Assembly (NCBI GenBank): GCA_913062845.1
Contig: CAJXVZ010000004.1
Coordinates: forward strand, 30,011 to 94,010
Origin: an uncultured Psychroflexus sp.
Lineage (GTDB): Bacteria; Bacteroidota; Bacteroidia; Flavobacteriales; Flavobacteriaceae
DNA length: 64,000 nucleotides
Direction: 5' to 3'
The notes under the pieces are model-generated. The model had not been told where the DNA came from. It saw nothing but the letters and a program-made list of their open reading frames with translations, and made no database searches. Made by a program: the position numbers and the translations under genes. This document shows positions 45,001 through 63,726 of this stretch, piece by piece. Position 1 is the stretch's first letter; every line of letters begins with the position of its first letter.

Positions 45001-45092
45001 CATCAACAGGAGCGCCAATTGGAGGTGGTATAGATTTTGGATTCTATCCCATTCCAAGAATATATACACTTGGACTTAATGTAAAATTTTAA
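42060..45092 (+). CDS. SusC/RagA family TonB-linked outer membrane protein
   Basis: Signal peptide; TVSGTVVDDASIPIPGVNISVKGTTQGTITDFDGNYTL; TonB box EALDEIVVIGYG; SNIRIRGISSNGNNAPLIILDGF; DAQAAIYGSIGANGVILIETKKG; C-terminal F. Confidence 0.96.
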   Translation: MNKWIYLLVFSITTSIAFSQNTVSGTVVDDASIPIPGVNISVKGTTQGTITDFDGNYTLEGLELDQVIVFSYVGFKTQEITYTGQTTLNVQLVESAEALDEIVVIGYGASSKRMITGAVSTVNAESIEDLEPLNAANALQGTTAGVNVLQGSGAPGAESNIRIRGISSNGNNAPLIILDGFQYDGGLNSINPQDIESITVLKDAQAAIYGSIGANGVILIETKKGSFNQSPTVNYNTYYGIQETSRTLPLLNATEYTLLLNESYANAGQALPFPNVNNIENDTDWQDEVFDTAAITSHNFSIQGGSEKTRYVMSASNLQQDGIVGQEKSSFDRTTVRLFVNSEVRDFLTVSANAIHTTNRSRGLNTFGLGSVLFNAANIAPIISPDRDNLDGTIDLGNEVVNPLTQINQTFNDFESNRLSGNFKADLEYAKDFVLTARYGFNFSNLNNREFFPEFDYGNGKVFSRPENQVNQNQQEFYDYTFDLFHTIDKTIADYHDIKFTAGMTVFRTHGEGLFASRTGVPNNSFGFADVGQATGTGDDQTNGSFVSELRRLSYFGRVEYAFKDKYLFSGMLRRDTSSLFGPNNQVGWFPSATAGWIISEEDFFNSDGIFNFIKLRGSYGGLGNDQIPANGFLSLLVGEAEYVLGQEQELVNGQALGPLANPDIKWETAVKTNVGLDLRLFDRALDVTIDYYNDERRDLLIGGIPTSGILGTSAPASSPPTKNAGTVTNSGIEVSFNYSKDVSKDFSFAVGFNFATINNEVTEIIDAEFLEGGQFGVGQPLPSRMEVGQPLGYFYGLKTDGIFQTQAEVDAHPSQLSLGAEAQPGDIRFVDVNGDGIINDEDRTNIGDPIPDVTMGFNLSLNYKNFEFNTYAFGNYGNEIVRNFERDQVNVNVMRRRLDRWTGPGTSNVEPRVTSGINTNKVFSDYFVEDGSFLRIQTISLGYNFPEKIYSKIGASSIKIYTKVDNAFTFTEYSGYDPTASTGAPIGGGIDFGFYPIPRIYTLGLNVKF

Positions 45093-45098
45093 AATAAA

Positions 45099-46607
45099 AT
45101 GAATATGAAATTATATAAAGTAATAATAGCAATTTGCTTAGTGGGAATGTGTTTTTCCTGTAGCGATGAGTTTGCGCTGCCAGATCCGCCATTTGCGGTG
45201 ACTTCGGACGCCTTTTTCCTTTCTCAGGGGGATTTTGAGAATTCACTTATAGGAGCATATGATCCATTACAGGCTACCTATGCTAATGTTATTCTGGGCG
45301 AAATCGCTTCAGACAACACACATGCCGGAGGTGAAAGCGCAACAGACGTTATTGGCTGGCAGCAGGTGGACAGAATGATCCATACCGAGGTCAATGATAA
45401 CCTTGATGATATATGGGACTTTAACTTTGCTGGTGTCTATAGAACATCTTATATCATAGAAAATGCAGACAACGAAGTAGAGTTCGATAGTAAAGCTCAA
45501 ATCATTGCCGAGGCAAAATTTTTAAGAGCATATTTCAATTTTGAATTGGTGAAGTGGTTTGGTGGTATTCCCATAAAACCTGAAGGAAAATTTGAACTTG
45601 GAGAAGAACGCAGTATTCCGAGATCAACAGTAGAAGAGGTTTATGCCTACATAGAAAATGATTTGATCCAGGCTATTCCTGACCTGGCAGAGCAGGCTCC
45701 TCAAGTAGGAAGAGCTTCTAAGTTTGCTGCTCAGGCTTTACTCGGTAAAGTTTATTTGTATCAAGATAAATTTGCTGAAAGTGCGCAAGAACTACAAGCT
45801 GTAATAAATTCCGGACAATATCACCTTTACGGTACCCAGGAAGGCGAGGATTTTTTAAATCTGTTTGAGTTCTTTGTAGAAAACGGCCCTGAATCTGTAT
45901 TTGAAATTCAATATACGGGTGCTCAGGGAGCTGGTTTTGGATGTTTACAATGTAGTGAAGGTAATGTTGCTGTTGGTTTTAGCGGCGTTCGTGGTTATAA
46001 CGGACCGGTTTTTGAATCTGGTTTTGGTTTTAACTTACCAACGCAGGAAGCCGTTGATGCTTTTTCCGATAATGACCTGCGAAAACAACTTACGATTTTA
46101 GATATTGAAGCTTGGGTAGCCGATTTTCAGGATCAGGGTGTTCCTGTAACATACAATATTGGTAATCAAGACCCTCAAACTGGTCATACTGGCTTTTACA
46201 ATAGAAAATATTTACCAAGAGAAAATGATAATTTGCCGGATGTAAATTTAACGCATCCAAATAACTACAGAGCAATAAGATACGCAGATGTCTTGTTAAT
46301 GGCCGCTGAAGCTTTAAACAGAGGAGGCATAGACGATGCATTAGCCAGGGACTATTTAAATCAGGTGAGAGAAAGAGCAGGTCTGGCGCCTACAGATGCG
46401 TCCGGCAGTGTTCTTTTAGAAACGATTTATCTGGACAGAAGACTTGAATTAATGGGAGAAGGTCACCGATTCTTTGACCTTGTCAGAACGGGAAGAGCTG
46501 CTTCCTTCATTGACGGATTTCAGGAAAACAAAAACGAAGTATTCCCTATTCCTTTAGAAGAGATCCAATTTGCACAAGGCAACTGGGAACAAAATACGGG
46601 TTACTAA
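45099..46607 (+). CDS. SusD/RagB family nutrient-binding lipoprotein
   Basis: Lipobox MCFSCSDE; AEAKFLRAYFNFELVKWFGGIP; YRAIRYADVLLMAAEALNRGG, YLNQVRERAGL, ERRLELMGEGHRFFDLVR-type motif. Confidence 0.95.
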   Translation: MNMKLYKVIIAICLVGMCFSCSDEFALPDPPFAVTSDAFFLSQGDFENSLIGAYDPLQATYANVILGEIASDNTHAGGESATDVIGWQQVDRMIHTEVNDNLDDIWDFNFAGVYRTSYIIENADNEVEFDSKAQIIAEAKFLRAYFNFELVKWFGGIPIKPEGKFELGEERSIPRSTVEEVYAYIENDLIQAIPDLAEQAPQVGRASKFAAQALLGKVYLYQDKFAESAQELQAVINSGQYHLYGTQEGEDFLNLFEFFVENGPESVFEIQYTGAQGAGFGCLQCSEGNVAVGFSGVRGYNGPVFESGFGFNLPTQEAVDAFSDNDLRKQLTILDIEAWVADFQDQGVPVTYNIGNQDPQTGHTGFYNRKYLPRENDNLPDVNLTHPNNYRAIRYADVLLMAAEALNRGGIDDALARDYLNQVRERAGLAPTDASGSVLLETIYLDRRLELMGEGHRFFDLVRTGRAASFIDGFQENKNEVFPIPLEEIQFAQGNWEQNTGY

Positions 46608-46616
46608 ATTAATATT

Positions 46617-48641
46617 ATGATGAAGACACATATTTATAAATACTTATTGATTTTCACAGCATTATTTTTTATTGCCTGTGAAGAAGAGGATGGACTGCAA
46701 AATGCTCAGATTCCAATGCCTCAGAACATTAGTGTAGATTTTATTCTCACGCAGGATAATTCAGGTCTAGTTACTTTAAGGCCAAAAGGGGAAGGTGCAA
46801 ATACCTTTGCTATAGATTTTGGAGATGGTTCTGAGCCTCTGACAGAAATTGAACCCGGAACTGTAGTTGACCATATTTACGATGAGGGTAATTATTCAGT
46901 TGAGGTTACCGGGTTCAATATTAAAGGTGAATCTACTGCTGTTTCACAGGAATTGGTAGTATCTTTTCTTCCTCCTGAAAATTTAGAGGTTACTGTAGTA
47001 AAAGATCAGACAGATCCTCTAAAAATAAGCGTTTCTGCTACAGCAGATAATGCCGCTGCCTTTGAAGTTCTATTTGGTGATGAGGCAGACGGGGAAGACC
47101 CAACACCAATGATGATTGGAGAAACCCTGGAGCATAGTTATTCAACCGTAGGGACATTCACGGTGACAGTGACAGCTCTTAGTGGTGGTGCTGCCACAAC
47201 TTCAGCTTCCGAAGAGGTTGAAATCTTTGATCCGCTGGTTTTTCCTATTGATTTTGAATCTTCCACAGTTGACTATACATTCTTTAACTTTGGAGGCGGT
47301 GAAGATATTGGTGTACCTATCATATCTAATCCTGACCCAAGTGGAGTTAATGATAGCCCCACAGTCGCAGAATATACAAAAGTTAATGCTTCAGAGCCAT
47401 GGGCCGGTACTTCGGTAACGCTTAATGAACCAATAGATTTTTCAACTACAACCACAGTAGCCATGGATGTTTGGTCACCGGCTGCAGGCACACCGATCCT
47501 CTTTAAGGTTGAAAACTCTTCTGATAATACCTTATTTTCAGAGATACAGGCTTCAACAACGGTATCCAGTCAATGGGAAACAGTTGAGTTTACTTTGCCA
47601 AGTATAGATCAGAATGTAGATTATGATGTTATAGCAATCTTCTTTAATTTCAATACACCTGGTACAGGAGAAACCTATTATTTTGACAATTTAAGAACGA
47701 CTCAACCATTTGAAATTAACCTGCCTTTGGACTTTGAAGGTAATGCTATCGCCTATCCATTTACAGATTTTGGTGATGCTGTAACATCCGTTATCGCCAA
47801 TCCGGGACCAGATGCTGAAAATTCAAGTAGTCAGGTGGCCTCAACATTGAGACCAAACGGCGCACCAAATTTTGCAGGTACTTTTATAGATCTGGAAAAT
47901 CCGGTTGATTTTTCTGTGAGTACAGATATCTCTTTAAAAGTATGGTCGCCAGCTCCGAATACGACGGTTACCATAAAATTTGAAGAAATTGGGAATGGCA
48001 GTAATGCGGTTGAACAATCAACAACCACAACTGTAAGTAATGCCTGGGAAACAGTGACGATAGACTTTTCATCATTTGGCAACACGCCAACAGTCTTTGC
48101 CAGAATGGTTGTATTTTTCAACTTAGGACAGAATGGTGCAGGAAACACCTATTATTTTGATGACATCAGCTACGGCAGTTTTGGCGTTCAGGATTTTGAA
48201 GGTACCGCACCAACATTTACCGTCTTCGGCAACATTGCAGATACCGAAGTTTTAGCAAATCCTAACCCTGATGCAGTAAACTCCACTACTAATGTTGCAA
48301 ATCTTACCAAAACAGCAGGTTCTGAGGTTTGGGCCGGTACATTTTTTGAATTGAATCAGCCCTTAGATCTGGATAGTTTTTCTAAAATCAGCGTGTTAAC
48401 GCATGCCCCAACTTCAGGGATCACGGTAAAACTCAAGATTGAAGATCAACTTGGTGATAATGGTGGTATCACTCATGAAGTGGATGTTGTAAATACTGTA
48501 GCGAATGGATGGGAGGAACTTGTTTACGACTTTAGTTCAGCACCTGAAGCAGATTACGTTAGGATAGTTATATTCTTTGATTTTGGAAATGCAGGTGATG
48601 ATAGTGAGTATTATTTTGATGAAATTAAACTTAAAAACTAA
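46617..48641 (+). CDS. PKD-containing lipoprotein with three tandem jelly-roll-like (CBM-like) modules; candidate surface glycan-binding protein
   Basis: Lipobox ALFFIACEE; PKD-like FAIDFGDGSEPLTEIEPGTVVDHIYDEGNYSVEVT; three repeats with DFEG/DFES...ANP-P-AxNSS...WAGTxxxLxxPxDF...VWSPxxxTxxxxKxE...YYFDxI. Confidence 0.85.
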   Translation: MMKTHIYKYLLIFTALFFIACEEEDGLQNAQIPMPQNISVDFILTQDNSGLVTLRPKGEGANTFAIDFGDGSEPLTEIEPGTVVDHIYDEGNYSVEVTGFNIKGESTAVSQELVVSFLPPENLEVTVVKDQTDPLKISVSATADNAAAFEVLFGDEADGEDPTPMMIGETLEHSYSTVGTFTVTVTALSGGAATTSASEEVEIFDPLVFPIDFESSTVDYTFFNFGGGEDIGVPIISNPDPSGVNDSPTVAEYTKVNASEPWAGTSVTLNEPIDFSTTTTVAMDVWSPAAGTPILFKVENSSDNTLFSEIQASTTVSSQWETVEFTLPSIDQNVDYDVIAIFFNFNTPGTGETYYFDNLRTTQPFEINLPLDFEGNAIAYPFTDFGDAVTSVIANPGPDAENSSSQVASTLRPNGAPNFAGTFIDLENPVDFSVSTDISLKVWSPAPNTTVTIKFEEIGNGSNAVEQSTTTTVSNAWETVTIDFSSFGNTPTVFARMVVFFNLGQNGAGNTYYFDDISYGSFGVQDFEGTAPTFTVFGNIADTEVLANPNPDAVNSTTNVANLTKTAGSEVWAGTFFELNQPLDLDSFSKISVLTHAPTSGITVKLKIEDQLGDNGGITHEVDVVNTVANGWEELVYDFSSAPEADYVRIVIFFDFGNAGDDSEYYFDEIKLKN

Positions 48642-48646
48642 AAATT

Positions 48647-49567
48647 ATGAATATCAATAAAATTTTAATCTTATTTCTGTCTATCGGCTTATTTGCCTGT
48701 CAGGAAGACGATCAACAATTTGGTGATGTCACGGTTCCGACAAATCTGACGATACAAGCCGAGATAGTTGGAGCCGATGCTGATAACCCAAATGGAGATG
48801 GTTCCGGTGAAGTTATTTTTACAGCAAATGCCGATAATGCCATCTCTTACGCTTTTGTGTATAATACTGATAAAAGAAGTGCACCAGGTGGATCACAGTC
48901 GTTTATTTTTTCAACCCTAGGTGTCAATACTTACACAGTAACAGCAATTGCCTATGGGACAGCAGGAGTTTCAACATCTGAGACAATAGAGGTTGATGTT
49001 TTGGCTTTGTATGAGCCACCAATAGAATTAAGAGCAAAGCTTTTCAATTTTGATCCGGACAATCCGGATGCTGAGACTTCTAAGACCTGGAGAATTAAGT
49101 CAGAAGTCCCTGGTCATTTTGGTCTTGGGCCGGTTGGTGGTGAGATTCCAACAGAATGGTATGGTGCAAGCGTTAATGAAAAAGCAGGTGTAGGTATGTA
49201 CGACGATAGGTATGTCTTTAATTCTGATGGTACTTTTGAGTTTATAACCAATGTAAATAGTGGAGACTCTAGTGGTACTGTTTTTGGAAGAGCGGGATTG
49301 ATTGATCAACTAAATGGTTCCGGAGGTACTGTGAACGGAGCAGACGTAGAAAATTTACCTTATGAGGATTTTGAAGTGGCTTATTCTTTGATTGCTCCCG
49401 GTGGAACTGAAACCATTAGTTTTTCAGGAAATGGTTTTATAGGTTACTTTACGGGAGGAACGCAAAATTATGAGATATTCGACAGGTCTGTGCCTGGAGA
49501 ACTTATTTTGAAAACAACAGATGGTAATAATGAATTCGATTGGTGGTTTATCTTAACATCAGAATAA
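48647..49567 (+). CDS. PUL-associated lipoprotein, putative glycan binding
   Basis: Lipobox IGLFACQED; PKD/FN3-like N-terminus; TWRIKSEVPGHFGLGPVGGEIPTEWYGA...FILTSE; follows SusC/SusD. Confidence 0.7.
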   Translation: MNINKILILFLSIGLFACQEDDQQFGDVTVPTNLTIQAEIVGADADNPNGDGSGEVIFTANADNAISYAFVYNTDKRSAPGGSQSFIFSTLGVNTYTVTAIAYGTAGVSTSETIEVDVLALYEPPIELRAKLFNFDPDNPDAETSKTWRIKSEVPGHFGLGPVGGEIPTEWYGASVNEKAGVGMYDDRYVFNSDGTFEFITNVNSGDSSGTVFGRAGLIDQLNGSGGTVNGADVENLPYEDFEVAYSLIAPGGTETISFSGNGFIGYFTGGTQNYEIFDRSVPGELILKTTDGNNEFDWWFILTSE

Positions 49568-49629: not shown

Positions 49630-49683
49630 GTTATGTTATTTTTTAAATAATTACATTTGAACGTTATCAATTATAAATTTACA

Positions 49684-50931
49684 ATGATAGACAGGACTAC
49701 AATATTAGATCGATTCATAAAATACATAAAAATAGATTCACAAAGCGATGCCGAAAGCGATTCTACTCCGAGCACTCATAAGCAATGGGATATGGCCAAT
49801 TTGCTGAAGGCCGAATTAGAGGAGATAGGTATGAGTGAAGTAAGCATAGATGAAAACAGCTATGTTATGGCTACTCTGCCCTCAAATACAGACAAAGATG
49901 TACCATGCATTGGATTTGTATCTCATTTTGATACAACACCGGATTATACCGGGACAAATATAAATCCTCAAATCCATGAGAATTATGATGGAAAAGACAT
50001 TGTCTTGAACAAAGAAAAGAATATGCTGCTATCTCCGGATTATTTTGAAGAACTCAGAGATTATAAAGGCCAGACCTTGATCACAACAGACGGAACAACA
50101 TTGCTTGCAGCAGATGACAAAGCCGGAATTACTGAAATCATGTCTGCTATGGAATATCTTATTCAACATCCAGAGATCAGGCATGGAAAAGTGCGCGTTT
50201 GTTTTACACCTGATGAAGAAATTGGGCGAGGTGCTCACAAGTTTGACGTAGAGGCCTTTGGCGCAGAATGGGCATATACCATGGATGGAAGCCAGATAGG
50301 GGAGCTTGAATATGAGAACTTTAATGCAGCATCAGCAAAAATTACTATAAGCGGTAAAAGCGTCCACCCGGGTTATGCTAAAGGAAAAATGATAAACAGC
50401 ATGCTTATTGCAAAAAAATATATGGCTTTTTTGCCTGATAATGAAGTGCCTGAAAAGACTGACGGAAGGGAAGGCTTTTTTCATCTCACATCTATGAGTG
50501 GTAGCATTGAGCTGTCCAATTTGTCATATATCATTAGAGATCATGATAAATCAAAATTTGAAGAGCGTAAAAGCTTATTACACAAAATTGCAGGCCAACT
50601 TAATAAGGAATATAATGAGGACTTAATTAAAGTCGAGATAGTTGATCAGTATTACAACATGAAGGAGAAAGTAGAGCCGGTGATGCACATTGTTGATATA
50701 GCTAAAAAAGCTATGAAAAGTTGCGGAATAAAACCAATAATTAAACCTATTCGTGGAGGTACAGATGGTTCACAATTATCCTATATGGGTCTGCCGTGTC
50801 CTAATATTTTTGCCGGTGGGCATAATTTTCACGGACCATACGAATATGTGCCTTTGGAAAGTATGCAAAAAGCAACAGAAGTTATAATAAAAATCGCAGA
50901 ATTAACCGCTGAAAACCATTCCAATAAATAA
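49684..50931 (+). CDS. pepT: Peptidase T (tripeptide aminopeptidase)
   Basis: [115 protein letters not shown] 49684 preferred over TTG 49657. Confidence 0.95.
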
Positions 50932-50948
50932 CAATTGAATATCGATTA

Positions 50949-53735
50949 ATGGCTAAGCACAGGCTTTTTTTAAAACTGTTTTTCATCTGTACTCTTTGTT
51001 CGGCAGATTTTATTAGTGCCCAAACTCTGCCGCCTGTAGCACACTATCTCCCCGAAGATTATGAAGCCGATAATCAAAATTGGTCTATAACCCAAACACG
51101 GGATAATGTCATTTTCATTGCAAATGGTAAGGGTCTTTTAAAGTTTGATGGTGAACAGTGGGAACTGCTTGGTTCGCCAAACAATACAATTCTTCGGTCC
51201 GTATATGCATTAGAAGATAAGGTGTACACGGGCGCCTACATGGAATTTGGTGTTTGGGAAAAAGACGAGTCAGACCATTACAAATACAAATCACTTTCTG
51301 CAGACATTGGACTTATAGAAGATGAACAATTCTGGACCATAAACTCTTTGGAACATTTTATAATATTTCAGTCTCTTGATGCCATTTATATGTACAATTC
51401 GAAAACTGGAACTATTAACAGCATAATAGCCAATGGAGAAATAACTAAAATGGTAGTTCTTGACAAAGAAATATATTTTCACAGCAAGAATGAAGGCTTA
51501 TTTCAATTAGTAAATGGCAAAAAACAGCTTTTGAATGATAGCGAAATTATTAAGAAAAGTACCCTGATTAATATTTACAAAATTAATGAACAGTTGTACG
51601 CTCAAACACAATTTAATGGTATAATAAATTTAGCTAACAACCTTGAGTACATCCCAAAGAGTCTGGAGAAAGAATGGTCCGATTTATCCGTATACAGCAG
51701 TCTTCAAAAAGAAAACGGCGACATTTTTCTTGGAACAATCTCCAATGGTCTTTTTAAAATTTCAAAAGATAATTTGTTGTACCATTTAAATCAAAAAAAT
51801 ACACTGAGTAACAATACCATCCTAAGTATTTTTAACGATAATTCTAATAATATCTGGCTCGGGCTGGACAATGGTATAAACATCATTGATGATGACTCAA
51901 ATCTCTCTCTATTCCGGGATAAAGATGGTGAACTCGGGACCATTTATACTTCAATAACCTATAATGATGTACTTTACGTCGGCTCCAATCAAGGCTTATT
52001 CTATTTTGACACTGATTTAAATAAATTTACCCTGGTAAAAGGAACAAGTGGCCAGGTCTGGAATCTATTTGTGTTCAGGGACACATTATTTTGTGGTCAT
52101 CATAATGGGACTTATGTTATAGAGAACAAAACCTCAAGGTTTATAGAAAATACAAGAGGAACCTGGACCTTTAGGATTAAAGAAGAAAATACGCTGGTGT
52201 CAGGTAATTATGACGGCTTGTATGTATACAAATATGATGGTCAATGGTCTTTAGACAAGAAAATAAAAGGTTTTGAAATATCGACTCAGTACTTTGAGTT
52301 TATTGACAAAAACTCTATTCTGATTAATCATGAATATAAAGGCTTGTTCAAATTGGATATAAATGATGACTTTTCTAAGGTGGATAAAGTTCAGACTATA
52401 ACCTCTGTTGAGAAAGGCTTATTCTCATCAATAGTTAAATTTAAAGATAAAATACTTTATGCATACAGAGAAGGTGTTTTTGCCTATGATAGAAAAGATA
52501 ATACGTTCATTAAAGATTCCCTGCTTTCAGAAATCGTAAATCCCGATAACTTTTCATCAGGCCGGATGGAAATAACCAAAGATGAAAAATTGTGGTTTTT
52601 CAACAAAACAGATATTGTGAGTGTAGTACAAAGCCCGGTAAACAATCAATATCTGGTCAATAAGATTCCAATAAATAATGAGTTCAGACATCAGATTTCC
52701 GGTTATGAAAATATAAGCTTAGATGGCCAAAACACTTACCTATTAGGTGGAAGTAATGGTTTTATCGAAATAGATATAGAAAAGCCCCGGGATTATAATA
52801 CAGATATTTCGATCAGCAATATATCGGTATACGATAAAAACAGTAATCAAGTTGAGAAAATCGAATTGTCTGGTATTGATAATAAATATAATAATCTCAG
52901 ATTTCAGATAAGTGCCCTCAACTTTAGCCCATTGCTCAAAAGTGAATATCAGTATAAATTGATTGGATACAATGACAGCTGGAGTTCATGGCAGGAGAAT
53001 ACACAGCTCAATTTTAAAAATCTAAAGTACGGTAATTATACCCTGAAAATAAGAAGTAGAATAGGTGAAGATAATATAAGTGAAACCAAAAGCCTGAAAT
53101 TTTTCATAGAGAAACCATTTTTCTTATCAACTAAAATGATTTTGTTATATATAATCCTTGCGGTTATTTTAATTATCAGTGTGCATCTTATGTACAAAAG
53201 TTATTACAAAAAGCAAAAAATTGCGATTCAGGAAGAGGCTAATAGGAAACTTAAAGTGAAGGAGCTTAAAGCTCAAAAAGAAATAATGGATGTCAACAAT
53301 AAACAATTAAAGCAGGATATAGAAAACAAGAACAGAGAGCTGGCAATTTCTACAATGAGCCTTATTAAGAAAAATGAATTTCTTTCTCAGATAAAAGGTG
53401 ATTTGAAACCTTTAAAGTCTTCGGACAATATAATAAGAAAGGTTGTAAAATCAATTGATTCAAATATTAACAGTAAGGACGACTGGAAATTTTTCGAAGA
53501 AGCCTTTAATAATGCTGATAAGGATTTCTTTAAAAAGCTCAAAGAGCTTCACCCTTCATTAACTCATAATGATTTCAAACTATGCGCCTATTTAAGGCTA
53601 AATTTAAGCTCAAAAGAAATAGCACCCCTGTTTAATATTTCAACAAAAAGCGTAGAGATCAAACGATATCGATTGCGTAAAAAGATGAATTTGGACCGTG
53701 ATCAAAGTTTAACGGATTACATTTTAGAGATATAA
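50949..53735 (+). CDS. Membrane-bound propeller/Y_Y_Y (triple-tyrosine) sensor with C-terminal LuxR-type HTH; PUL regulator
   Basis: Signal peptide; propeller-like repeats (NNIWLGLDNGINIID); YKLIGYNDSWSSWQENTQLNFKNLKYGNYTLKIRSR; TM helix MILLYIILAVILIISVHLMY; coiled coil; HTH LTHNDFKLCAYLRLNLSSKEIAPLFNISTKSVEIKRYRLRKKMNL. Confidence 0.88.
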   Translation: MAKHRLFLKLFFICTLCSADFISAQTLPPVAHYLPEDYEADNQNWSITQTRDNVIFIANGKGLLKFDGEQWELLGSPNNTILRSVYALEDKVYTGAYMEFGVWEKDESDHYKYKSLSADIGLIEDEQFWTINSLEHFIIFQSLDAIYMYNSKTGTINSIIANGEITKMVVLDKEIYFHSKNEGLFQLVNGKKQLLNDSEIIKKSTLINIYKINEQLYAQTQFNGIINLANNLEYIPKSLEKEWSDLSVYSSLQKENGDIFLGTISNGLFKISKDNLLYHLNQKNTLSNNTILSIFNDNSNNIWLGLDNGINIIDDDSNLSLFRDKDGELGTIYTSITYNDVLYVGSNQGLFYFDTDLNKFTLVKGTSGQVWNLFVFRDTLFCGHHNGTYVIENKTSRFIENTRGTWTFRIKEENTLVSGNYDGLYVYKYDGQWSLDKKIKGFEISTQYFEFIDKNSILINHEYKGLFKLDINDDFSKVDKVQTITSVEKGLFSSIVKFKDKILYAYREGVFAYDRKDNTFIKDSLLSEIVNPDNFSSGRMEITKDEKLWFFNKTDIVSVVQSPVNNQYLVNKIPINNEFRHQISGYENISLDGQNTYLLGGSNGFIEIDIEKPRDYNTDISISNISVYDKNSNQVEKIELSGIDNKYNNLRFQISALNFSPLLKSEYQYKLIGYNDSWSSWQENTQLNFKNLKYGNYTLKIRSRIGEDNISETKSLKFFIEKPFFLSTKMILLYIILAVILIISVHLMYKSYYKKQKIAIQEEANRKLKVKELKAQKEIMDVNNKQLKQDIENKNRELAISTMSLIKKNEFLSQIKGDLKPLKSSDNIIRKVVKSIDSNINSKDDWKFFEEAFNNADKDFFKKLKELHPSLTHNDFKLCAYLRLNLSSKEIAPLFNISTKSVEIKRYRLRKKMNLDRDQSLTDYILEI

Positions 53736-53915: not shown

Positions 53916-53948
53916 TTTGGCTTTAGCTTACGAAAACGATTAAGTTTG
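53916..53948 (+). promoter_or_regulatory. Putative Bacteroidota promoter (TTTG-N21-TAAGTTTG) for the glycosidase operon
   Basis: TTTG at 53916-53919, 21-nt spacer, TAAGTTTG at 53941-53948, ATG at 53973. Confidence 0.6.
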
Positions 53949-53972: not shown

Positions 53973-56900
53973 ATGAAAAATATATTTCTTTCTTTTATTT
54001 TGATGTTATGTTCCATGTCCATTTATGCGCAGGGACATAATGTGCAGGTTATAGACGATAGTAAAGGTCAGTATCTTTTAGTGGATGGTGAACCTTTTAT
54101 GATCAATGGTATGAATTGGGATTACTTCCCTATTGGTACAAATTTCAATTACAGTTTATGGAATCAACCGGACGAAATCATTAAGGCCGCTCTGGACGAT
54201 GAAATGGGCTTGTTGAAAAATATGGGTGTTAATACTGTAAGACTTTATACTGGTATTCAGCCTAAATGGATTACTTATATTTACGAAAATTACGGTATCT
54301 ACACGATGTTGAATCACTCATTTGGTAGATATGGTCTCACTATAGACGGCGTGTGGACACCGGTTACAAAATATGACGACCCCGCGACAATAGATCTGTT
54401 AATGTCTGAAGTTACCGAATTGGCATCTACATATAAAGGTACAAAAGGACTATTAATGTATCTTTTAGGTAATGAGAATAACTATGGTTTGTTCTGGGCT
54501 GGTGCGGAAACAGAAGATTTTCCTGAAGGCGAAGAGCAAATCCGAGCGATAGGTGAGAACAGAGGTCGACCGATGTATAAATTGATGAATGATGCTTCAA
54601 ACAAAATGAAATCTATTGATGGCAACGTTCCGGTGGCTATATGTAATGGAGATGTATTGTTTATCGAAATCATCGCTCAGGAATGTCCTGATGTAGACAT
54701 CTATGGTACCAATATGTATCGAGGTGAATCTTTTGGTGATGCTTTTGAGAAAATCAGACAAGTATATGGCAAACCAGTTTTATTTACAGAATTTGGTTCA
54801 GATGCTTTTAATGCATTAAGTAATCAGGAAGACCAAAAAATGCAGGCGTATTTCATGGTTGAAAACTGGAAAGAAATCTACCAGAACGCTGCAGGATTAG
54901 GTCTTTCAGATAACTCTATTGGTGGTTTTACATTTCAGTTCAGTGATGGCTGGTGGAAATTCGGACAGACAAAGAATTTAGACGTTCACGACAGTAATGC
55001 TTCCTGGTCTAATGGTGGTTATTATATTGATCACGAGGAAGGCAGGAATAATATGAATGAGGAATGGTTTGGTATTTGTGCAAAAGGACCTACAAATGCC
55101 AGAGGACTTTATACGCTTTATCCAAGAGCAGCCTATTACGCATTGAAAGACGCTCATAAGATAAATCCTTATGTAGAAGGTGTTGATTTGGATTTTATTG
55201 ATAATTATTTTGAAAATAACATTTCTCTCACCGACGCAATGCTGAGAGCAAGAGGTGATAAAGCGGCAATGGATGGTGGCGGTTCAAGTGCTTTAGGTAT
55301 CACAAGACTATCTGCACACTTATCTACCTTCTACACAGGCGGTAGTTTGATCACAACTCCGGACAACCCAGACCCGGACGAAAACACCTTTCCAAACCAA
55401 TTAGGTTTCGATCAAATGCAATCTTATTTTATAGGGATAGGCGGAAAGCCTGCACCAAATGTGAGCTATGATGTGCAATTCAACATTGTTGGTGATGTGG
55501 CACAAAATCCTATCAACGAAATCTTTTATGAAAACAGAAACAGAATAGTTACTATACAAACTGATCAGGGAGAAGTAACACTGGAAGATGTTAACAGACT
55601 TAATCTGTATCAGGCCGAATTTGAATGGAACCACGATGCTTTTGATCTGAGAGGATTTTTCAGAACAGGTCACTACCACTGGGGTTATGAGGGTGATTTC
55701 TTTGGATTATATCCTGAGGCTAACTATGGTCCTAACCTGGATATCTATGGCGGTATTATCTCTGGTATTGAAGTTGATGCTAAAGGAGATTTGGAAGGAC
55801 TCAAAGCGGCTATTGGTCCTCAGTTATGGTGGGGCGCAAACCCAACCATGTTGTTCAAGTATTCTAAAACCATAGGACATTGGGATGTCACGGGTATCTA
55901 CAACAGAGACCTGGAAACAGATATAGAATTTGACGAGAACGGAAGACGTATTTTAGACCAGAATCAGGTGCGTTCCGGTGTTATTCCACCATGGCCAATG
56001 GAAAGAGCAACTCTTGCACTCGAAAGAGACTTTGGTAAATTTGGTTTAACCGTCGGTGGTATATGGGGTGGAAGACCTCTAAACGGAAGTACTTACCAGG
56101 ATATTGATGATAATGGTAACGTAGTTGTAGATAGAATTACTTCCGATGATAATTGGGGTGGAAAAGCAAAAATCACCTATGCAGGAGGTAAATTCAACTG
56201 GTATGCACAAGGTGCAGTAATGGGACTTGTTGCCAACGGTAGTGCAGATCCAACCCTTACTTTTACAGGATGGAAGTTAAAAGATACGGGTAGTGGTAAT
56301 CAACAGAATTTTCTGACCGGCTTCACGTATAATATTGGAAAATGGCAAATAGCACCTAACTTTATGTGGCAACAACCTCTGGTTGATCCTATGCCAAATG
56401 GTGTAGATGCGCCTGGACGTTTAAGAAATTTCATCGACGATCCTTTTGCAGTGCGTTGGAACCGTGAAACCACAGCTGGAGAAATATTATTCACTTATGA
56501 CCCAACACCCGGTACATATATGTATAATTGGGATAATAACAGGGCGGAAGATGCCAAGTTTGCCATGAGTGCAGGATTTGTATACAGACATTTACCTACA
56601 ACCATGGATGCGCACATTGGTTTCCTGGATACTCGTGAATTTTTTGCATTTGCTGAATCTGCACCGGCAGAAGATCTTTGGGAAGCCCACGCAAGGGTTG
56701 TTTCAAAGTTAAGCCCGGAGTTGGGTATCGTAGGTACTTTCTATTACGGTAATGGTCAGGCAAGAGGTGATTCTCAAAGATTAGTAACCGACAGATTTGG
56801 TGCTAATGTAGATATCAGATATAAGAAATTCTGGATACAGGGAGATGTTAAGGTTAATGACTGGGGTCCTTTTGACTACCACAGGGACTTTAACCTTACA

Positions 56901-57146
56901 TTCCCGCTGCAGTTAATGCTGGATTTATCCACTACATTGAGTAAGCCTGAATGGTATGTTTTACCTACAACTCAAGTTGGTATAAGAGGCATCTGGAGAT
57001 CATTAAATGAATTTTCACCAAGATATTCTCCAACAGCAACACCACTGGGGACTTTTAATCAGGATCCGCCGCTGAGCGCAGTTGGATTCCCAAATGGTTC
57101 AGAGTGGGAAATCATGACATACATTAGATTTAACATTGGAAAATAA
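53973..57146 (+). CDS. Clan GH-A-like glycosidase (TIM barrel) with C-terminal outer-membrane beta-barrel-like domain
   Basis: Signal peptide MKNIFLSFILMLCSMSIYAQ; VDGEPFMINGMNWDYFP..., LLKNMGVNTVRLYTG, GNEN (E168), PVLFTEFGSD (E273) typical of beta4/beta7 catalytic Glu; from residue ~480 alternating aromatic/hydrophobic beta-strands ending EIMTYIRFNIGK. Confidence 0.75.
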   Translation: MKNIFLSFILMLCSMSIYAQGHNVQVIDDSKGQYLLVDGEPFMINGMNWDYFPIGTNFNYSLWNQPDEIIKAALDDEMGLLKNMGVNTVRLYTGIQPKWITYIYENYGIYTMLNHSFGRYGLTIDGVWTPVTKYDDPATIDLLMSEVTELASTYKGTKGLLMYLLGNENNYGLFWAGAETEDFPEGEEQIRAIGENRGRPMYKLMNDASNKMKSIDGNVPVAICNGDVLFIEIIAQECPDVDIYGTNMYRGESFGDAFEKIRQVYGKPVLFTEFGSDAFNALSNQEDQKMQAYFMVENWKEIYQNAAGLGLSDNSIGGFTFQFSDGWWKFGQTKNLDVHDSNASWSNGGYYIDHEEGRNNMNEEWFGICAKGPTNARGLYTLYPRAAYYALKDAHKINPYVEGVDLDFIDNYFENNISLTDAMLRARGDKAAMDGGGSSALGITRLSAHLSTFYTGGSLITTPDNPDPDENTFPNQLGFDQMQSYFIGIGGKPAPNVSYDVQFNIVGDVAQNPINEIFYENRNRIVTIQTDQGEVTLEDVNRLNLYQAEFEWNHDAFDLRGFFRTGHYHWGYEGDFFGLYPEANYGPNLDIYGGIISGIEVDAKGDLEGLKAAIGPQLWWGANPTMLFKYSKTIGHWDVTGIYNRDLETDIEFDENGRRILDQNQVRSGVIPPWPMERATLALERDFGKFGLTVGGIWGGRPLNGSTYQDIDDNGNVVVDRITSDDNWGGKAKITYAGGKFNWYAQGAVMGLVANGSADPTLTFTGWKLKDTGSGNQQNFLTGFTYNIGKWQIAPNFMWQQPLVDPMPNGVDAPGRLRNFIDDPFAVRWNRETTAGEILFTYDPTPGTYMYNWDNNRAEDAKFAMSAGFVYRHLPTTMDAHIGFLDTREFFAFAESAPAEDLWEAHARVVSKLSPELGIVGTFYYGNGQARGDSQRLVTDRFGANVDIRYKKFWIQGDVKVNDWGPFDYHRDFNLTFPLQLMLDLSTTLSKPEWYVLPTTQVGIRGIWRSLNEFSPRYSPTATPLGTFNQDPPLSAVGFPNGSEWEIMTYIRFNIGK

Positions 57147-57153
57147 TTTTAAA

Positions 57154-58602
57154 ATGATAAAGCATAAATTCACATATTTAAAATTCTTTGGACTTGTATT
57201 GTTATCAGGAATGGTATTTACAAGCTGCGAAAGAGAAATTTCAGACCAGGCCGTACCGGCAACTTTTCCAAATACGGCTGAAGTCTACACTGACAACCCG
57301 GTTGGATTAACCGATGAGTTCTTTGAATCTTTTGATCCTGCAACCGGTGCAAATACAGAAGCCTTTGGAACTGATGACGAGGTTTCGTATTTGGGTTCTT
57401 CTTCAATAAGGTTAGATATTCCTGCACCAAACGATCCTGATGGTGGTTTTATAGGCGGAATTTTTAAAGATAGAGGCGAAGGCCGGGATTTATCGGGTTA
57501 CGATGCTTTGACTTTTTGGATAAAAGCTTCGAGAACTGCTGCATTTGATCAAATTGGTTTTGGAGCGGACTTTGAAGAGGGTAAATTCACTACAGCAAGG
57601 TTCAACATACCTTTGTCCACTGATTGGAGAAAAATAACAATTCCAATTCCAGAGCCTTCAAAACTGACTCAGGAAAAGGGTTTGTTTTTATTTTCAACCG
57701 GAACAAACAGTACAGATGGTGTTGGCTTTACGGTTTGGATTGATGAAATACGATATGAAAATCTAGGCACAATTGGACAAAAGCAATCAAGTATTTTTAA
57801 TGGGAATAATGTAAATCAGGATGCTTTTGTTGATGTACCAATTCAGATTGAAGAATTTTCAGTTTCTGCAAATCTGGCATCCGGCGAAAATGTTACAGTT
57901 CAGGCATCTCCTCAGTATTTTGATTTTTCATCTTCAAATCCTGATGTTGCAACTGTCAGCGAAACAGGACTGGTCTCAGTTATAAGTACTGGTGAAGCTA
58001 CAATTTCTGCGACTCTTGGTAATACAGCAACTCAGGGAACACTCAACTTAAATGTTGAAGGAGGATTCAACTTTGCTCCTGTACCAACCAGACCAGCAGA
58101 AAATGTTGTTTCAATTTTTAGTGACGCCTACCTGAACATTCCTGTATCACGGTATAATTCCTTTTTCGAGCCTTTTCAAACCACACTGGGAGGCGTACAA
58201 CAAGTAGGTTCTCAAAGCATTATAAGTTACACAAACCTTAATTTTGTCGGTATTGTATTTAACGATGTTATTTTTCCGGCAGAAGCTGTGCAACCCGTCA
58301 ATGCAACAGGCCTGACGCATTTACACATCGATGTAAACGTACAGGAACCTGTGCAGGCTTCAGATAGACTTTTACTGCAGTTAACTAATTATGGTGCAAC
58401 AGAAACAGTTGGTTCTTTCCTTATCAACGGTTCAGACCTACTAGAAGATGAATGGGTCGGATTTGATATACCATTATCTGATTTCTCTGGGTTGACCGAC
58501 AGAAACAGAATTGGATTACTATTGTTTAATTCTGAATCAGGCCCGGCAAACCCAACAATTTCCAATATATTTCTCGATAACATTTACTTCTACACGGAAT
58601 AA
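57154..58602 (+). CDS. PUL lipoprotein with Big_2-like Ig domain and C-terminal carbohydrate-binding-like module; candidate surface glycan-binding protein
   Basis: Lipobox SGMVFTSCERE; Big_2-like ATVSETGLVSVISTGEATISAT; C-terminal module resembles that of the 2706-aa T9SS protein. Start reassigned to ATG 57154. Confidence 0.78.
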   Translation: MIKHKFTYLKFFGLVLLSGMVFTSCEREISDQAVPATFPNTAEVYTDNPVGLTDEFFESFDPATGANTEAFGTDDEVSYLGSSSIRLDIPAPNDPDGGFIGGIFKDRGEGRDLSGYDALTFWIKASRTAAFDQIGFGADFEEGKFTTARFNIPLSTDWRKITIPIPEPSKLTQEKGLFLFSTGTNSTDGVGFTVWIDEIRYENLGTIGQKQSSIFNGNNVNQDAFVDVPIQIEEFSVSANLASGENVTVQASPQYFDFSSSNPDVATVSETGLVSVISTGEATISATLGNTATQGTLNLNVEGGFNFAPVPTRPAENVVSIFSDAYLNIPVSRYNSFFEPFQTTLGGVQQVGSQSIISYTNLNFVGIVFNDVIFPAEAVQPVNATGLTHLHIDVNVQEPVQASDRLLLQLTNYGATETVGSFLINGSDLLEDEWVGFDIPLSDFSGLTDRNRIGLLLFNSESGPANPTISNIFLDNIYFYTE

Positions 58603-58613
58603 AATTTAACATT

Positions 58614-59450
58614 ATGAACAAAATAAAATATATAGCAATCATTCTTATCTTCTCGACAAGTTTTGTCAGTTGCGACCTAGACGAAACCCAGGAAGTAGTG
58701 ACCAAAAACAATCTCGTATGGTCAGATGAATTTGATACCGATGGTGCGCCTGATCCAAATAATTGGAATTATGAGATTGGAGATGGTTCGGCTCAGGGTA
58801 TTCCGGGTTGGGGAAATAACGAGTTACAATATTATACCGACCGACCAGAGAATGTGAAAGTAGAAAACGGTGTTCTTGTCATTACAGCCCGACAGGAATC
58901 CTTCCAGGGCAGTAATTACACTTCTGCAAGATTAACAACAAAAGGCTTAATGGATAGACAATACGGTCGTTTTGAAGCAAGAATCAGAGTGCCTTACGGA
59001 AAAGGATACTGGCCTGCATTCTGGATGTTGGGCGATGATAGTGATGGTGAAATTTGGCCTCAAATAGGTGAAATTGACATTATGGAAAATGTTGGTGATG
59101 AGCCTACAGTTGCTTTTGGTAGCATTCACGGGCCAGGTTACAGCGGCGGAGAATCTATTGGTAAAGATTTTGAATTAGAAAACGATAGATTCGATACTGG
59201 CTTCCATATCTTCGGTATTGAATGGTCACCAAACCGTATCAATTACTACATAGATGACAAATTATACCAGTCCTTAACCCCTGAAGATGTTGATGAAGAA
59301 ACTGATGGAGAAGGTGTTTGGGTATTTAACGACAGATCTTTTTATATCATTCTTAATTTGGCTGTAGGTGGTAATCTGCCTGGAAGTCCTAATGCTGAAA
59401 CAGAATTTCCGCAAAGTATGATAGTGGATTACGTTAGAGTTTATGAATAA
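58614..59450 (+). CDS. GH16 family lipoprotein, laminarinase-like endo-beta-1,3-glucanase
   Basis: Lipobox TSFVSCDLD; NLVWSDEFDTDGAPDPNNWNYEIGDG, WGNNELQYYTDRPENVKVENGVLVITAR, catalytic GEIDIMENVG, GSIHGPGYSGG. Confidence 0.95.
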   Translation: MNKIKYIAIILIFSTSFVSCDLDETQEVVTKNNLVWSDEFDTDGAPDPNNWNYEIGDGSAQGIPGWGNNELQYYTDRPENVKVENGVLVITARQESFQGSNYTSARLTTKGLMDRQYGRFEARIRVPYGKGYWPAFWMLGDDSDGEIWPQIGEIDIMENVGDEPTVAFGSIHGPGYSGGESIGKDFELENDRFDTGFHIFGIEWSPNRINYYIDDKLYQSLTPEDVDEETDGEGVWVFNDRSFYIILNLAVGGNLPGSPNAETEFPQSMIVDYVRVYE

Positions 59451-59466
59451 TCAAAATATTTCTAAA

Positions 59467-60234
59467 ATGCAATTAAAACAAAATATCATATTGTCAACAT
59501 TGTTCGTTCTTTCTGCGTTTTTATTCTCGTGTGAAGAAAATGAAAGCGGAGTAGATTTCGTTGGATTTGAAGCCAGATTCATCAGTGATATTGATGGGCG
59601 AACCGTTAATTTTAATAATTTGTCAACCAATGCGGTCAGCTTCCAATGGGACTTTGGTGATGGTACAACTTCTGTATTGGAAAATCCTTCTAAAACTTAT
59701 AATGTAGGAGGAACGTTTACGGTGACACTAACGGCTACCAGTGATGATGGTATTACAGACTCTTTTCAGGATTCATTTGTATTCGAAGACCCTTTTGACT
59801 CAGGATTACTTGTAAATGGTGATTTTGAAAATGGTTCACAAGGCTGGATCGTTGGTGTTGATGATTCTGCCCCTGCACCTGTTGTTACTGAGGATGGTAA
59901 TACATTTTATGAAGCCAATATTACTAATCCGGATCCAAATGCGCCTTTTTTGGTCAACATCAGTCAAAAACTGGCAATCGAGCAGGGCAACACATACACA
60001 TTAACTTTTGATGCATCTTCCGATCAGGACAGAACGATAATTGCCGGTATAGGTCTTAGTGGAGGTGATTTTTCAAATGATACAGAAATTGTAAACTTAA
60101 CCAACACAACACAGCAATTTAGTCTTACATTGAGTTCGCAGGATTTTGGTGCGCCTGATGCAAGAGTGTTATTTGATTTAAATGGAGATGCTGGTTTGGT
60201 GCGTATAGATAATGTGTCATTAGTTCTTCAGTAA
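59467..60234 (+). CDS. PKD-domain lipoprotein with C-terminal CBM4/9-like module
   Basis: Lipobox SAFLFSCEEN; PKD FQWDFGDGTTSVLENPSKTYNVGGTFTVTLTAT; LLVNGDFENGSQGWIVGV...RIDNVSLVLQ. ATG 59467 preferred over 59443. Confidence 0.82.
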   Translation: MQLKQNIILSTLFVLSAFLFSCEENESGVDFVGFEARFISDIDGRTVNFNNLSTNAVSFQWDFGDGTTSVLENPSKTYNVGGTFTVTLTATSDDGITDSFQDSFVFEDPFDSGLLVNGDFENGSQGWIVGVDDSAPAPVVTEDGNTFYEANITNPDPNAPFLVNISQKLAIEQGNTYTLTFDASSDQDRTIIAGIGLSGGDFSNDTEIVNLTNTTQQFSLTLSSQDFGAPDARVLFDLNGDAGLVRIDNVSLVLQ

Positions 60235-60294: not shown

Positions 60295-63200
60295 GTGAGT
60301 ACACAACAGGATCAACTTGAAATCGTAAAAATAAACGGGGAAAAATTTCTTAAAATTTCAAACAGTGACAGCATACGACCATTCTTTATGAGCATCGTAA
60401 GCCCTTACAACCATTGGATGTTTTTATCCAGTAACGGAGGAGTGACCGCTGGTAGAAAAAATAAAGAATTTGCGCTTTTCCCTTATTATACAGATGATAA
60501 AATAACAGAATCAGCCGATATCACTGGCAGTAAAACTATCTTAAAAGTGGTAGGTCCAAATAAGACATTTTTCTGGGAACCTTTTGCTAAACGATTTGCC
60601 GATCAGTATAATATCACCAGAAATCTATACAAGAATATTTGGGGAAATAAGGTGGTTTTTGAAGAAATAAACCACGATTTACAATTAAAATTCATTTACA
60701 GACTGTCATCAAGCGATGACTTCGGTTTTATCAAAGATGCCTCTGTTGAGAATTTAAGTCAAAAGGAAGTGAATTTTGAAATCTTAGACGGTTTTCAAAA
60801 TATTTTACCTGCCAGTGTAAACAGCGATTTGCAATCAGCACAAAGTAACCTGGTTGATGCTTACAAGAGAAATGAACTGGAACCTAATGTAGGCATGGGA
60901 ATTTATGCGCTAAGCGCAGTACCTGTAGATAAAGCCGAACCAAGTGAGGCTCTAAAAGCCAATGTCGTTTGGTCGCTTAACGCTCATACGCCAAAATTTT
61001 TAGTGTCATCCCTTCAATTAGAAAATTTTAGAAATGGTAAAGAAATCACCCAGGAAGTTGATGTCAAAGCAGAAAAAGGGGCTTATTTCATACACCAAAA
61101 TTTAAAGTTAGACTCTAAAGCCTCCAAATCATGGAAAATTGTGGCCGATGTTAACTTTAACCATGCTAAAGTTGTTGACTTCATTCATCGTATCAAATCA
61201 AATCCCGAACTTGAAAAAGCGATTGAAGATGATATTGAAAAAGGCACTCAAAAACTTATCAAATTAAACGCCTCGGCGGATGGGTTGCAATACTCAAGTG
61301 ATAAACTAAGAGACATTCGTCATTATTCCAACACACTTTACAATATTATGCGTGGAGGAATTTTTGACGATAATTACAATATTGAACTTAACGACTTCAA
61401 ACCTTACATCAAAACTGCCAATCTCGAGGTCTACAATAAATTTGAAAAAGATCTCGATAAACTTGGCGATGTTTTTACGCTTGCGGATTTAAAAGCTTTG
61501 GTCAAGGAGGAAAGCGATAAAGATTTTACCAGACTTTGTCTCGAATATTTACCACTAAAATTCAGCCGTAGACACGGTGACCCAAGTCGTCCGTGGAACC
61601 AGTTTTCTATCAATACAAAAGATGAAAACGGCAATAAAATTCTGGATTATGAAGGTAACTGGCGGGATATTTTCCAAAACTGGGAAGCACTCTCATTTTC
61701 CTATCCTGAGTTTTTGGAGAGCATGATTTACAAGTTTTTAAACGCTTCTACTTTTGATGGTTACAATCCATACCGTGTGACAAAAGATGGTTTTGACTGG
61801 GAGATTATTGAACCGGACGACCCATGGTCTTATATTGGCTATTGGGGTGACCACCAGATTATCTACTTACTCAAATTTCTTGAAGTTCTGGAAAACGTGA
61901 AACCCGGTAAGCTTGCAAAGCTATTCAAATCTGATGTATTTGTTTACGCTAATGTGCCTTACAGAATTAAATCTTATGAAGATACTTTAAAGGATCCTAA
62001 AGATACTATCGTTTTTGATCATGACCTTGACAAAAAAATAAGAGAAAAAAGAGAATCGCTGGGAGCTGACGGCGCTTTACTTGAGGACCAGAAAGGGAAC
62101 ATCATTCATGTTAACTTTATCGAAAAAATACTGGCAACCGCTCTGGCAAAGGTCTCTAACTTTATACCTGAAGGCGGTATTTGGATGAATACACAGCGCC
62201 CTGAATGGAATGATGCCAATAATGCGTTGGTAGGTAATGGGGTATCAATGGTCACACTTTATTATCTGAGAAGATTTTTCGATTTTTTCAAAACGATATT
62301 TAAAGGCATAAATGATGCTGAAACATTTGAATTGTCTAAAGAGGTTTTCGATATGTTCATGGCCATGCATCAGGCCTTGGACGCGCATAAAGGAGTTCTT
62401 TATTCTGAAATTTCAGACAGAGAAAGAAAAGCCGTTCTTGATGCTGTTGCTATTCCGGCAAGTCAATTCAGGACTTTTGTATACGAGAAAGGATTTACAG
62501 GTGAAAAGGTATCTGTAAATATTACAGATTTAGAAGCATTTATAGATAATATTCTGGAGTTTTTGGAACAATCTATCGAAGCCAATAAACGCCAGGACAA
62601 CCTATATCACGCCTACAATTTGATGACATTAAACGATGACAATAGCATATCAATTTCCTACCTGGATGAAATGCTGGAAGGTCAGGTGGCAGTTTTGAGT
62701 GCTAAGTATTTATCTTCAGAAGATGCAGTGAGTGTTTTAGACGCCTTAAAAGATTCGGCGCTATTCAGACCTGATCAGTATAGTTACATCTTGTATCCTA
62801 ACAAGGCGCTTAAAGGCTATTTACAACGCAACAACATCCCTGAAAACCTCGTAGAGTCTTCAGAGTTATTGAAAACGCTGGTAGAGGACCAAAACACTAA
62901 GATTATTGAAAAAGATGTTGAAGGTCATTACCATTTCAATGCCAATTTCAACAATGATAAAAAACTGAAAGCAGCCCTTGAATCCATGAAGGATTCTAAA
63001 TATGCAGGTTTAGTTGAAAAAGATTTCGACGATGTAGTTCGTATTTTTGAAGAAGTCTTTAACCATAAAGCATTTACCGGTCGTTCAGGAACATTTTATG
63101 GCTATGAAGGCCTTGGTTCAATCTATTGGCATATGGTCTCAAAACTGCAACTGGCCGTATTTGAATGCTGTCAAAAAGCGATCGAGGAGAAAGCCGCAGA

Positions 63201-63726
63201 TGAAACCATTGGTCGACTACTGGAGCATTATTATGAGATTAATGAAGGCATTGGTGTGCACAAATCTCCTGAGTTATACGGAGCCTTTTCTACGGATCCC
63301 TACTCACATACACCATACGGAAAAGGAGCTCAACAGCCTGGTATGACCGGCCAGGTTAAAGAAGATATCCTGAGCCGATTTGGTGAAATAGGAATAACTA
63401 TGCACAAAGGTCATCTGGCCTTTAAGCCATACATGCTGCGCAAAGATGAATTTTTTAAGAAAGCAAAACAAGTTAATTATATTGATTTAGAGCATAATTT
63501 AAAAACACTTGAAGTACCCGAAAACTCGCTATGTTTTACGATATGTCAAACACCTGTAATTTACAGTATTTCAGATCATAACGAAATAGAAGTTACTCAA
63601 AGTGACAATTCTTCCCATTCTATCAACGGGCTTGAGTTACCTGAAGATATCAGTAGCTCAATCTTTAAGAGAGAAGGCAAGGTTGAACATTTACGAGTTT
63701 TTGTTGACCAATCTATCTTAAAATAA
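60295..63726 (+). CDS. GH94/GH149-like beta-glucan (beta-1,3-oligoglucan) phosphorylase, predicted cytoplasmic
   Basis: 1143 aa, GTG start, no signal peptide; WND motif RPEWNDANNALVGNG (D640) as in GH94-type inverting phosphorylases; located next to GH16 and GH17-like genes. Confidence 0.7.
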   Translation: MSTQQDQLEIVKINGEKFLKISNSDSIRPFFMSIVSPYNHWMFLSSNGGVTAGRKNKEFALFPYYTDDKITESADITGSKTILKVVGPNKTFFWEPFAKRFADQYNITRNLYKNIWGNKVVFEEINHDLQLKFIYRLSSSDDFGFIKDASVENLSQKEVNFEILDGFQNILPASVNSDLQSAQSNLVDAYKRNELEPNVGMGIYALSAVPVDKAEPSEALKANVVWSLNAHTPKFLVSSLQLENFRNGKEITQEVDVKAEKGAYFIHQNLKLDSKASKSWKIVADVNFNHAKVVDFIHRIKSNPELEKAIEDDIEKGTQKLIKLNASADGLQYSSDKLRDIRHYSNTLYNIMRGGIFDDNYNIELNDFKPYIKTANLEVYNKFEKDLDKLGDVFTLADLKALVKEESDKDFTRLCLEYLPLKFSRRHGDPSRPWNQFSINTKDENGNKILDYEGNWRDIFQNWEALSFSYPEFLESMIYKFLNASTFDGYNPYRVTKDGFDWEIIEPDDPWSYIGYWGDHQIIYLLKFLEVLENVKPGKLAKLFKSDVFVYANVPYRIKSYEDTLKDPKDTIVFDHDLDKKIREKRESLGADGALLEDQKGNIIHVNFIEKILATALAKVSNFIPEGGIWMNTQRPEWNDANNALVGNGVSMVTLYYLRRFFDFFKTIFKGINDAETFELSKEVFDMFMAMHQALDAHKGVLYSEISDRERKAVLDAVAIPASQFRTFVYEKGFTGEKVSVNITDLEAFIDNILEFLEQSIEANKRQDNLYHAYNLMTLNDDNSISISYLDEMLEGQVAVLSAKYLSSEDAVSVLDALKDSALFRPDQYSYILYPNKALKGYLQRNNIPENLVESSELLKTLVEDQNTKIIEKDVEGHYHFNANFNNDKKLKAALESMKDSKYAGLVEKDFDDVVRIFEEVFNHKAFTGRSGTFYGYEGLGSIYWHMVSKLQLAVFECCQKAIEEKAADETIGRLLEHYYEINEGIGVHKSPELYGAFSTDPYSHTPYGKGAQQPGMTGQVKEDILSRFGEIGITMHKGHLAFKPYMLRKDEFFKKAKQVNYIDLEHNLKTLEVPENSLCFTICQTPVIYSISDHNEIEVTQSDNSSHSINGLELPEDISSSIFKREGKVEHLRVFVDQSILK

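Follow-up and report, generated by a model that had tools for sequence, protein, structure and literature searches.

In a 64,000-nucleotide stretch of DNA from an uncultured Psychroflexus sp. (contig CAJXVZ010000004.1; hereafter the window, to which all plain coordinates refer), one gene encodes a predicted glycosidase of clan GH-A joined in the same polypeptide to a predicted 24-stranded outer-membrane beta-barrel. Comparison among Bacteroidota indicated that the fusion is conserved within a beta-1,3-glucan (laminarin) locus and that the SusC/SusD module next to it is dispensable. On the basis of structural models and gene context, we consider it somewhat probable that the protein acts as a channel-hydrolase for beta-1,3-glucan, combining an outer-membrane channel and a periplasmic glycosidase in one chain.

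Integrity and distribution of the fusion gene

53973..57146, plus strand: fusion gene (1057 aa), with signal peptide, clan GH-A glycosidase domain and predicted 24-stranded outer-membrane beta-barrel
53973..54032, plus strand: probable signal peptide I, residues 1-20 (MKNIFLSFILMLCSMSIYAQ), read from the sequence; a lipobox Cys is absent at its end

The gene is a single open reading frame on the plus strand with no internal stops, and both halves are kept in 110 distinct full-length sequences that are 51-86% identical. A tblastn search of representative genomes returned at least 585 relatives, 80 of which were retained as essentially full-length matches (63-86% identity), each being one open reading frame of 1042-1110 aa. 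These relatives, together with the 110 aligned sequences, rule out an assembly artefact or a chance fusion; judging from the reading frames, the fusion of enzyme and barrel is real. An initial sequence-only reading of this DNA had placed a glycosidase and a barrel in one polypeptide, and this is now upheld by the uninterrupted frame, the modelling of both folds and the conservation of the fusion. Residue Q20, at the end of the signal peptide, is invariant in 79 aligned sequences.

Beyond Flavobacteriaceae, Persicobacter and the gut species Bacteroides finegoldii have the fusion (54-59% identity); these two taxa also supplied the two relatives in a plasmid collection. The fusion is present in further families of Bacteroidota. 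Among 396 genomes, every intact barrel half shared its frame, of 1046 aa or more, with the enzyme half, the exceptions being contig ends, broken genes and one short remnant; two broken fusions (G355 and G397) and an enzyme standing alone at the end of a contig (G342) were left out. Fusion genes disrupted by stops or frame shifts were seen in L138 (genome G238), L137 (G120) and L143 (G355). In G120, the frame stops at a TAA after the enzyme half and only a short remnant of the barrel is left, suggesting that some stand-alone enzymes arose through loss of the barrel.

A candidate Bacteroidetes-type promoter 5' of the ATG (TTTG-N21-TAAGTTTG, 53916-53948) was given no weight, because the strict pattern lies upstream in only 3 of 129 loci; 1.4% of shuffled sequences have it. 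Scans for sigma-70 promoters and terminators found fewer sites than in shuffled sequences.

The catalytic half

54036..55262, plus strand: predicted glycosidase half, residues 22-430, (beta/alpha)8 (AlphaFold2; best Foldseek match GH158; Glyco_hydro_2_C over its cut-off in the B. finegoldii relative)
54474..54476, plus strand: codon of E168, presumed acid/base (GNEN following beta4; aligned with GNE of beta-galactosidase 1yq2)
54789..54791, plus strand: codon of E273, presumed nucleophile (in TEFG, which closes beta7 and aligns with the same motif of GH158 9oro)

The full chain was modelled by AlphaFold2 from 79 aligned sequences with moderate confidence (mean pLDDT 73.7, pTM 0.54). In this model, residues 24-320 form an alternating beta/alpha domain, in which GNEN (E168) directly follows beta4 (160-166) and beta7 (269-274) ends at TEFG (E273). 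Both glutamates are invariant in the 110 sequences, and a Foldseek search with the full chain ranked GH158 endo-laminarinases first, with other glycosidases and outer-membrane barrels below. A clan GH-A TIM barrel with its two presumed catalytic residues at beta4 and beta7, as originally proposed, is supported by the model.

The family had been left open as GH2/GH5/GH17/GH72-like, and it can now be narrowed, short of any single family. Searches of curated libraries with the window protein yielded in Pfam only a sub-threshold match to Glyco_hydro_cc, in NCBIfam no match, and with phmmer no PDB chain. A profile of 55 sequences matched beta-galactosidases weakly through GNE and GH158 through TEFG; for the fusion profile, sequence similarity to GH158 was not significant (E 0.009-0.011, partial match), and significant similarity (2.7e-10) was confined to a distant stand-alone relative of 337 aa. 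The GH158 endo-beta-1,3-glucanases (BuGH158 6PAL; GH158(Pro) 9ORO) share with the fusion the clan GH-A fold, the aligned TEFG and a beta-1,3-glucan locus, but identity is 12-14% and the GH158 chains in the PDB stand alone at about 400 aa. The GH2 TIM-barrel model (PF02836) did not match the window protein but exceeded its cut-off of 21, at 35.5 bits, in the B. finegoldii relative, which is so named in its record; no GH2 jelly-roll or Ig-like domain was detected in the fusion. As modelled, the catalytic half appears to belong to clan GH-A. Its fold is closest to that of GH158 and its sequence to the GH2 TIM-barrel model; it does not clearly belong to either family.

The enzyme half also occurs alone elsewhere, in proteins of about 340-480 aa whose genes often adjoin GH149 and sometimes GH17 and GH30 genes. 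Relatives of 336-352 aa (L144:5911-6930, L145:4792-5808, L146:5758-6768 and L140:9145-10203) adjoin GH149, and in L145 also GH17 and GH30; they exceed the Glyco_hydro_2_C cut-off where tested, match GH72 weakly and have a significant phmmer match to GH158. They probably represent a still unnamed family of glycosidases found in beta-1,3-glucan loci. Some stand-alone relatives carry lipoprotein-type signals, indicating that the enzyme family is not always in one place.

The barrel half

55296..57140, plus strand: predicted barrel half, residues 442-1056, 24 strands (AlphaFold2 of the whole chain and of the half alone, Foldseek, hydrophobicity contrast, alternation scan)

The full-chain AlphaFold2 model contains 24 long strands across residues 442-1056, and the C-terminal half folded alone gave the same 24 strands (pTM 0.75). 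When this C-terminal model was compared with the PDB by Foldseek, all of the 50 matches listed were outer-membrane barrels, among them TonB-dependent receptors (including Bacteroides BtuB), ScrY, LamB, MOMP, AlgE, OccK and others. TM-scores were low (0.23-0.36 over the query), and none of the solved barrels can serve as a close model. The substrate-specific porins LamB and ScrY, like the TonB-dependent receptors, have 18 or 22 strands and are enzyme-free, whereas the fusion is predicted to have 24 strands, has no detectable plug and bears an attached enzyme. Pfam found no plug domain (PF07715) in the fusion; the SusC encoded in the window has one. A search of a viral fold library added nothing.

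The hydrophobicity contrast between the two faces of the strands was 3.10. In 2000 null draws taken from the enzyme half, the contrast averaged 1.30 and never rose above 1.97; the comparison is biased in favor of the strands, since they were picked from the model. A dyad alternation scan that preceded the model found the C-terminal half above shuffled sequences (z=4.6) and the enzyme half not (z=-1.0); the control SG57, affected by a mislabelled open reading frame of 2706 aa, was left out of this comparison. The porin-like alternation first noticed by eye in this half is thus corroborated by model, structural matches and amphipathicity, and soluble CBM-like beta-sandwiches, the fold named at that time as its alternative, are ruled out by AlphaFold2 and Foldseek. 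Amphipathic strands, short periplasmic turns and long outer loops, all traits of outer-membrane barrels, are predicted for the fusion. Inward-facing strand residues are conserved above outward-facing ones (mean difference 0.107), as expected of a working lumen.

The laminarin locus

50949..53735, plus strand: regulator (Y_Y_Y, Reg_prop propeller, LuxR-type HTH), upstream of the fusion and often staying beside it
57154..58602, plus strand: probable surface glycan-binding lipoprotein (Big_2, weak CBM11); a homologue adjoins the fusion in 73 of 76 loci
58614..59450, plus strand: GH16 glucanase; a homologue lies downstream in 69 of 69 loci
59443..60234, plus strand: PKD and CBM4_9 lipoprotein
60295..63726, plus strand: GH149 beta-1,3-glucan phosphorylase (NF058639, 1759 bits; cut-off 1150); a homologue lies downstream in 60 of 66 loci

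The surroundings of the fusion are a beta-1,3-glucan (laminarin) locus, in which the genes are ordered regulator, fusion, binding protein, GH16 and GH149. Relatives with longer flanks add GH17, GH30 or MFS genes further on, as read from sequence and confirmed by Pfam in sister loci. In B. finegoldii, the order is DUF6377, fusion, hypothetical, GH16, fimbrillin, hypothetical and GH3. Elsewhere in the window, two large proteins (4753-12873, 2706 aa; 61-4551, 1496 aa) contain fn3, MAM or T9SS-associated galactose-binding domains, and each has a Por_Secre_tail type IX sorting domain.

Comparable loci are known. Laminarin polysaccharide utilization loci (PULs) of variant B or variant 1 in Formosa and Polaribacter share GH16, GH17, GH30, GH149 and MFS genes (PMC6298971, PMC6246565, PMC10108472); these papers classed them through SusCD and CAZymes, and we found no mention of a barrel-bearing enzyme in them. 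A 'GH2' gene has been reported upstream in Muricauda loci, one of them on contig SGIU01000001, the source of our L023 (PMC13188888), and an unclassified 'GH0' in GH149-GH0-GH16_3 loci, where it was highly transcribed in one Aurantivirga MAG (PMC10108472). Judged by position, both are likely to be the fusion gene. The locus is a known one, and the gene in it has probably been annotated already.

SusCD as an optional neighbor

42060..46607, plus strand: SusC-like TonB-dependent receptor and SusD-like lipoprotein, which form an optional module of their own upstream
46617..49567, plus strand: two binding-protein-like open reading frames (46617-48641 and 48647-49567) travelling with SusCD

In the window, SusC/SusD is followed by the two binding-protein-like genes, a peptidase T-like gene, the regulator and the fusion. 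The open reading frame at 49657-50931, which we take to be peptidase T-like, sits after the SusCD module and before the fusion module, and is also retained beside the latter in L002 and L005.

SusD was found upstream in 27 of 87 loci and was absent upstream in the other 60. Where at least 8 kb of upstream sequence was available (63 loci), 23 had SusD, 38 had the regulator but no SusD, and two had neither. On a tree of the 87 fusions, the SusD label needs 15 changes, and branches with strong support make at least 13 of these unavoidable. In the group outside Flavobacteriaceae, none of the 19 loci has SusD upstream; in B. finegoldii, SusCD is not annotated within the 30 kb. Furthermore, three fusion-bearing genomes that are 99-100% complete (G051, G066 and G255) gave no match to any of the SusD models PF07980, PF14322, PF12771 and PF12741. 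The SusD-free status initially given to five genomes was reduced to these three, as PF12771 and PF12741 matched SusD relatives in G145 and G203. In the loci of the three genomes, the fusion adjoins the binding protein and GH16, and L130 adds a ROK regulator, an MFS and a GH17 gene. A ROK-type regulator gene is likewise seen in L129, and no GH149 was seen in the 20 kb examined of L127, L129 and L130, the loci from genomes without detectable SusD.

SusCD is dispensable in the locus, and SusD in three genomes. The minority of loci with SusD upstream, the repeated changes of the label and the three SusD-free genomes suggest that the fusion module is autonomous, with SusCD appearing to have joined it repeatedly. 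A conserved hydrolase-barrel fusion with SusCD as an optional neighbor departs from the usual separate lipoprotein enzyme plus SusCD, just as the sequence-only reading had supposed.

The repeated joining of SusCD modules, one of which lies in the window, would also be compatible with the fusion being an accessory docked in a SusCD complex or on another TonB-dependent receptor that does the importing, and accessory lipoproteins do occur in known Bacteroides uptake complexes. We regard this as doubtful, because SusCD is not nearby in most loci, three near-complete genomes have no SusD detectable with the four Pfam models, and the conserved lumen-facing surface would be left unexplained.

Orientation of the protein

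55344..55403, plus strand: residues 458-477, predicted to form extracellular loop 1, which joins strands 1 and 2 (AlphaFold2 and loop analysis)

Loop lengths in the model alternate, with a mean of 23.7 residues for the 12 OUT loops and 4.8 for the 11 IN turns (p=9e-5), and nearly all length variation among the 110 sequences falls in OUT loops (p=0.005). Barrels assembled by BAM have their C-terminus in the periplasm; with an even strand count (24), the short turns and residue 441, at the end of the enzyme, would then be periplasmic as well. We infer from this model that the enzyme faces the periplasm. The P/D/N-rich stretch TTPDNPDPDENTFPNQ, which had been read as a linker between the halves, lies between strand 1 (442-457) and strand 2 (478-494) and is instead the predicted loop 1; the domain junction is near 433-441. 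Several outer loops are near-invariant (565-595, 618-624 and 964-976, with entropies of 0.35, 0.09 and 0.11) and may line or constrict the channel.

These features bear on whether the barrel is a mere anchor, the enzyme being displayed at the surface in autotransporter-like fashion or threaded through the barrel to cut laminarin for SusCD. The order of the domains is that of type V autotransporters, which have an N-terminal passenger and a C-terminal barrel, and SusD does lie upstream in the 27 loci noted above. However, the classical autotransporter barrel has 12 strands in roughly 300 residues against the 24 predicted here in about 615, strand parity sets the junction in the periplasm, and a mere anchor would not need a conserved polar inward face; we judge this explanation unlikely. 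Of the two roles first suggested for the barrel, conduction of oligosaccharides is the better supported, and surface anchoring is disfavored by the 24 strands and the periplasmic position of residue 441.

Proposed mechanism

For the channel-hydrolase, we infer transport, catalysis and specificity as follows. The adjacent lipoprotein and surface GH16 would bind laminarin and cut it to oligosaccharides, which may cross the lumen of the 24-stranded, plugless barrel, with its long and partly highly conserved loops selecting the sugar. The GH-A glycosidase, tethered by the same chain at the periplasmic mouth, would shorten or debranch the arriving oligosaccharides, and this trimming could keep the inward gradient steep. 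Final breakdown would fall to GH17, GH30 and GH149 together with the MFS transporter. Such a plugless pore would be passive and would probably admit oligosaccharides and not whole laminarin. The channel-hydrolase could cooperate with an adjoining SusCD module without requiring it. The broader claim, that this constitutes SusCD-independent uptake of beta-1,3-glucan across the outer membrane, with a single polypeptide forming the channel and also supplying the periplasmic enzyme that uses up what passes through it, is more tentative, and we give it not quite even credence.

The reverse direction, in which a transglycosylase or trimming enzyme acts on beta-glucan leaving through the barrel (cf. 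PgaA/PgaB and AlgE), recalls the exporter AlgE among the structural matches listed and the weak resemblance of some stand-alone relatives to GH72 glucanosyltransferases, but is highly improbable, since the labelled neighbors are glycosidases, a phosphorylase, binding proteins and a sugar MFS, with no synthase seen among them, and since laminarin induces PULs of this variant B or variant 1 kind in Formosa (PMC6246565).

The channel-hydrolase proposed here has a close precedent in FbGH17B-MFS of Formosa (PMC6246565), a laminarin enzyme-transporter fusion from a similar locus for which the same logic has been proposed; its transporter consists of inner-membrane MFS helices, whereas the fusion described here has an outer-membrane barrel. 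One NS4 MAG has been recorded without susCD (PMC10108472), and the parts seen of a paper on laminarin use in Maribacter (PMC11345257) do not treat the fusion protein. In the open-access literature, we found no description of a barrel fused to an enzyme, or of the fused module standing without SusCD, and within that literature both appear to be undescribed.

Implications

Laminarin ranks with the largest stores of organic carbon in the sea, and bacterial uptake of it has been read almost wholly through SusCD genes. If the fusion is a channel, loci that lack SusCD would nonetheless count as uptake loci and be missed by surveys that require susCD, and import across the outer membrane would be coupled to hydrolysis in one chain, an unusual arrangement. 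If this is true, a distinct route of glycan import would be widespread across Bacteroidota, masked so far by the labels 'GH2' and 'GH0'.
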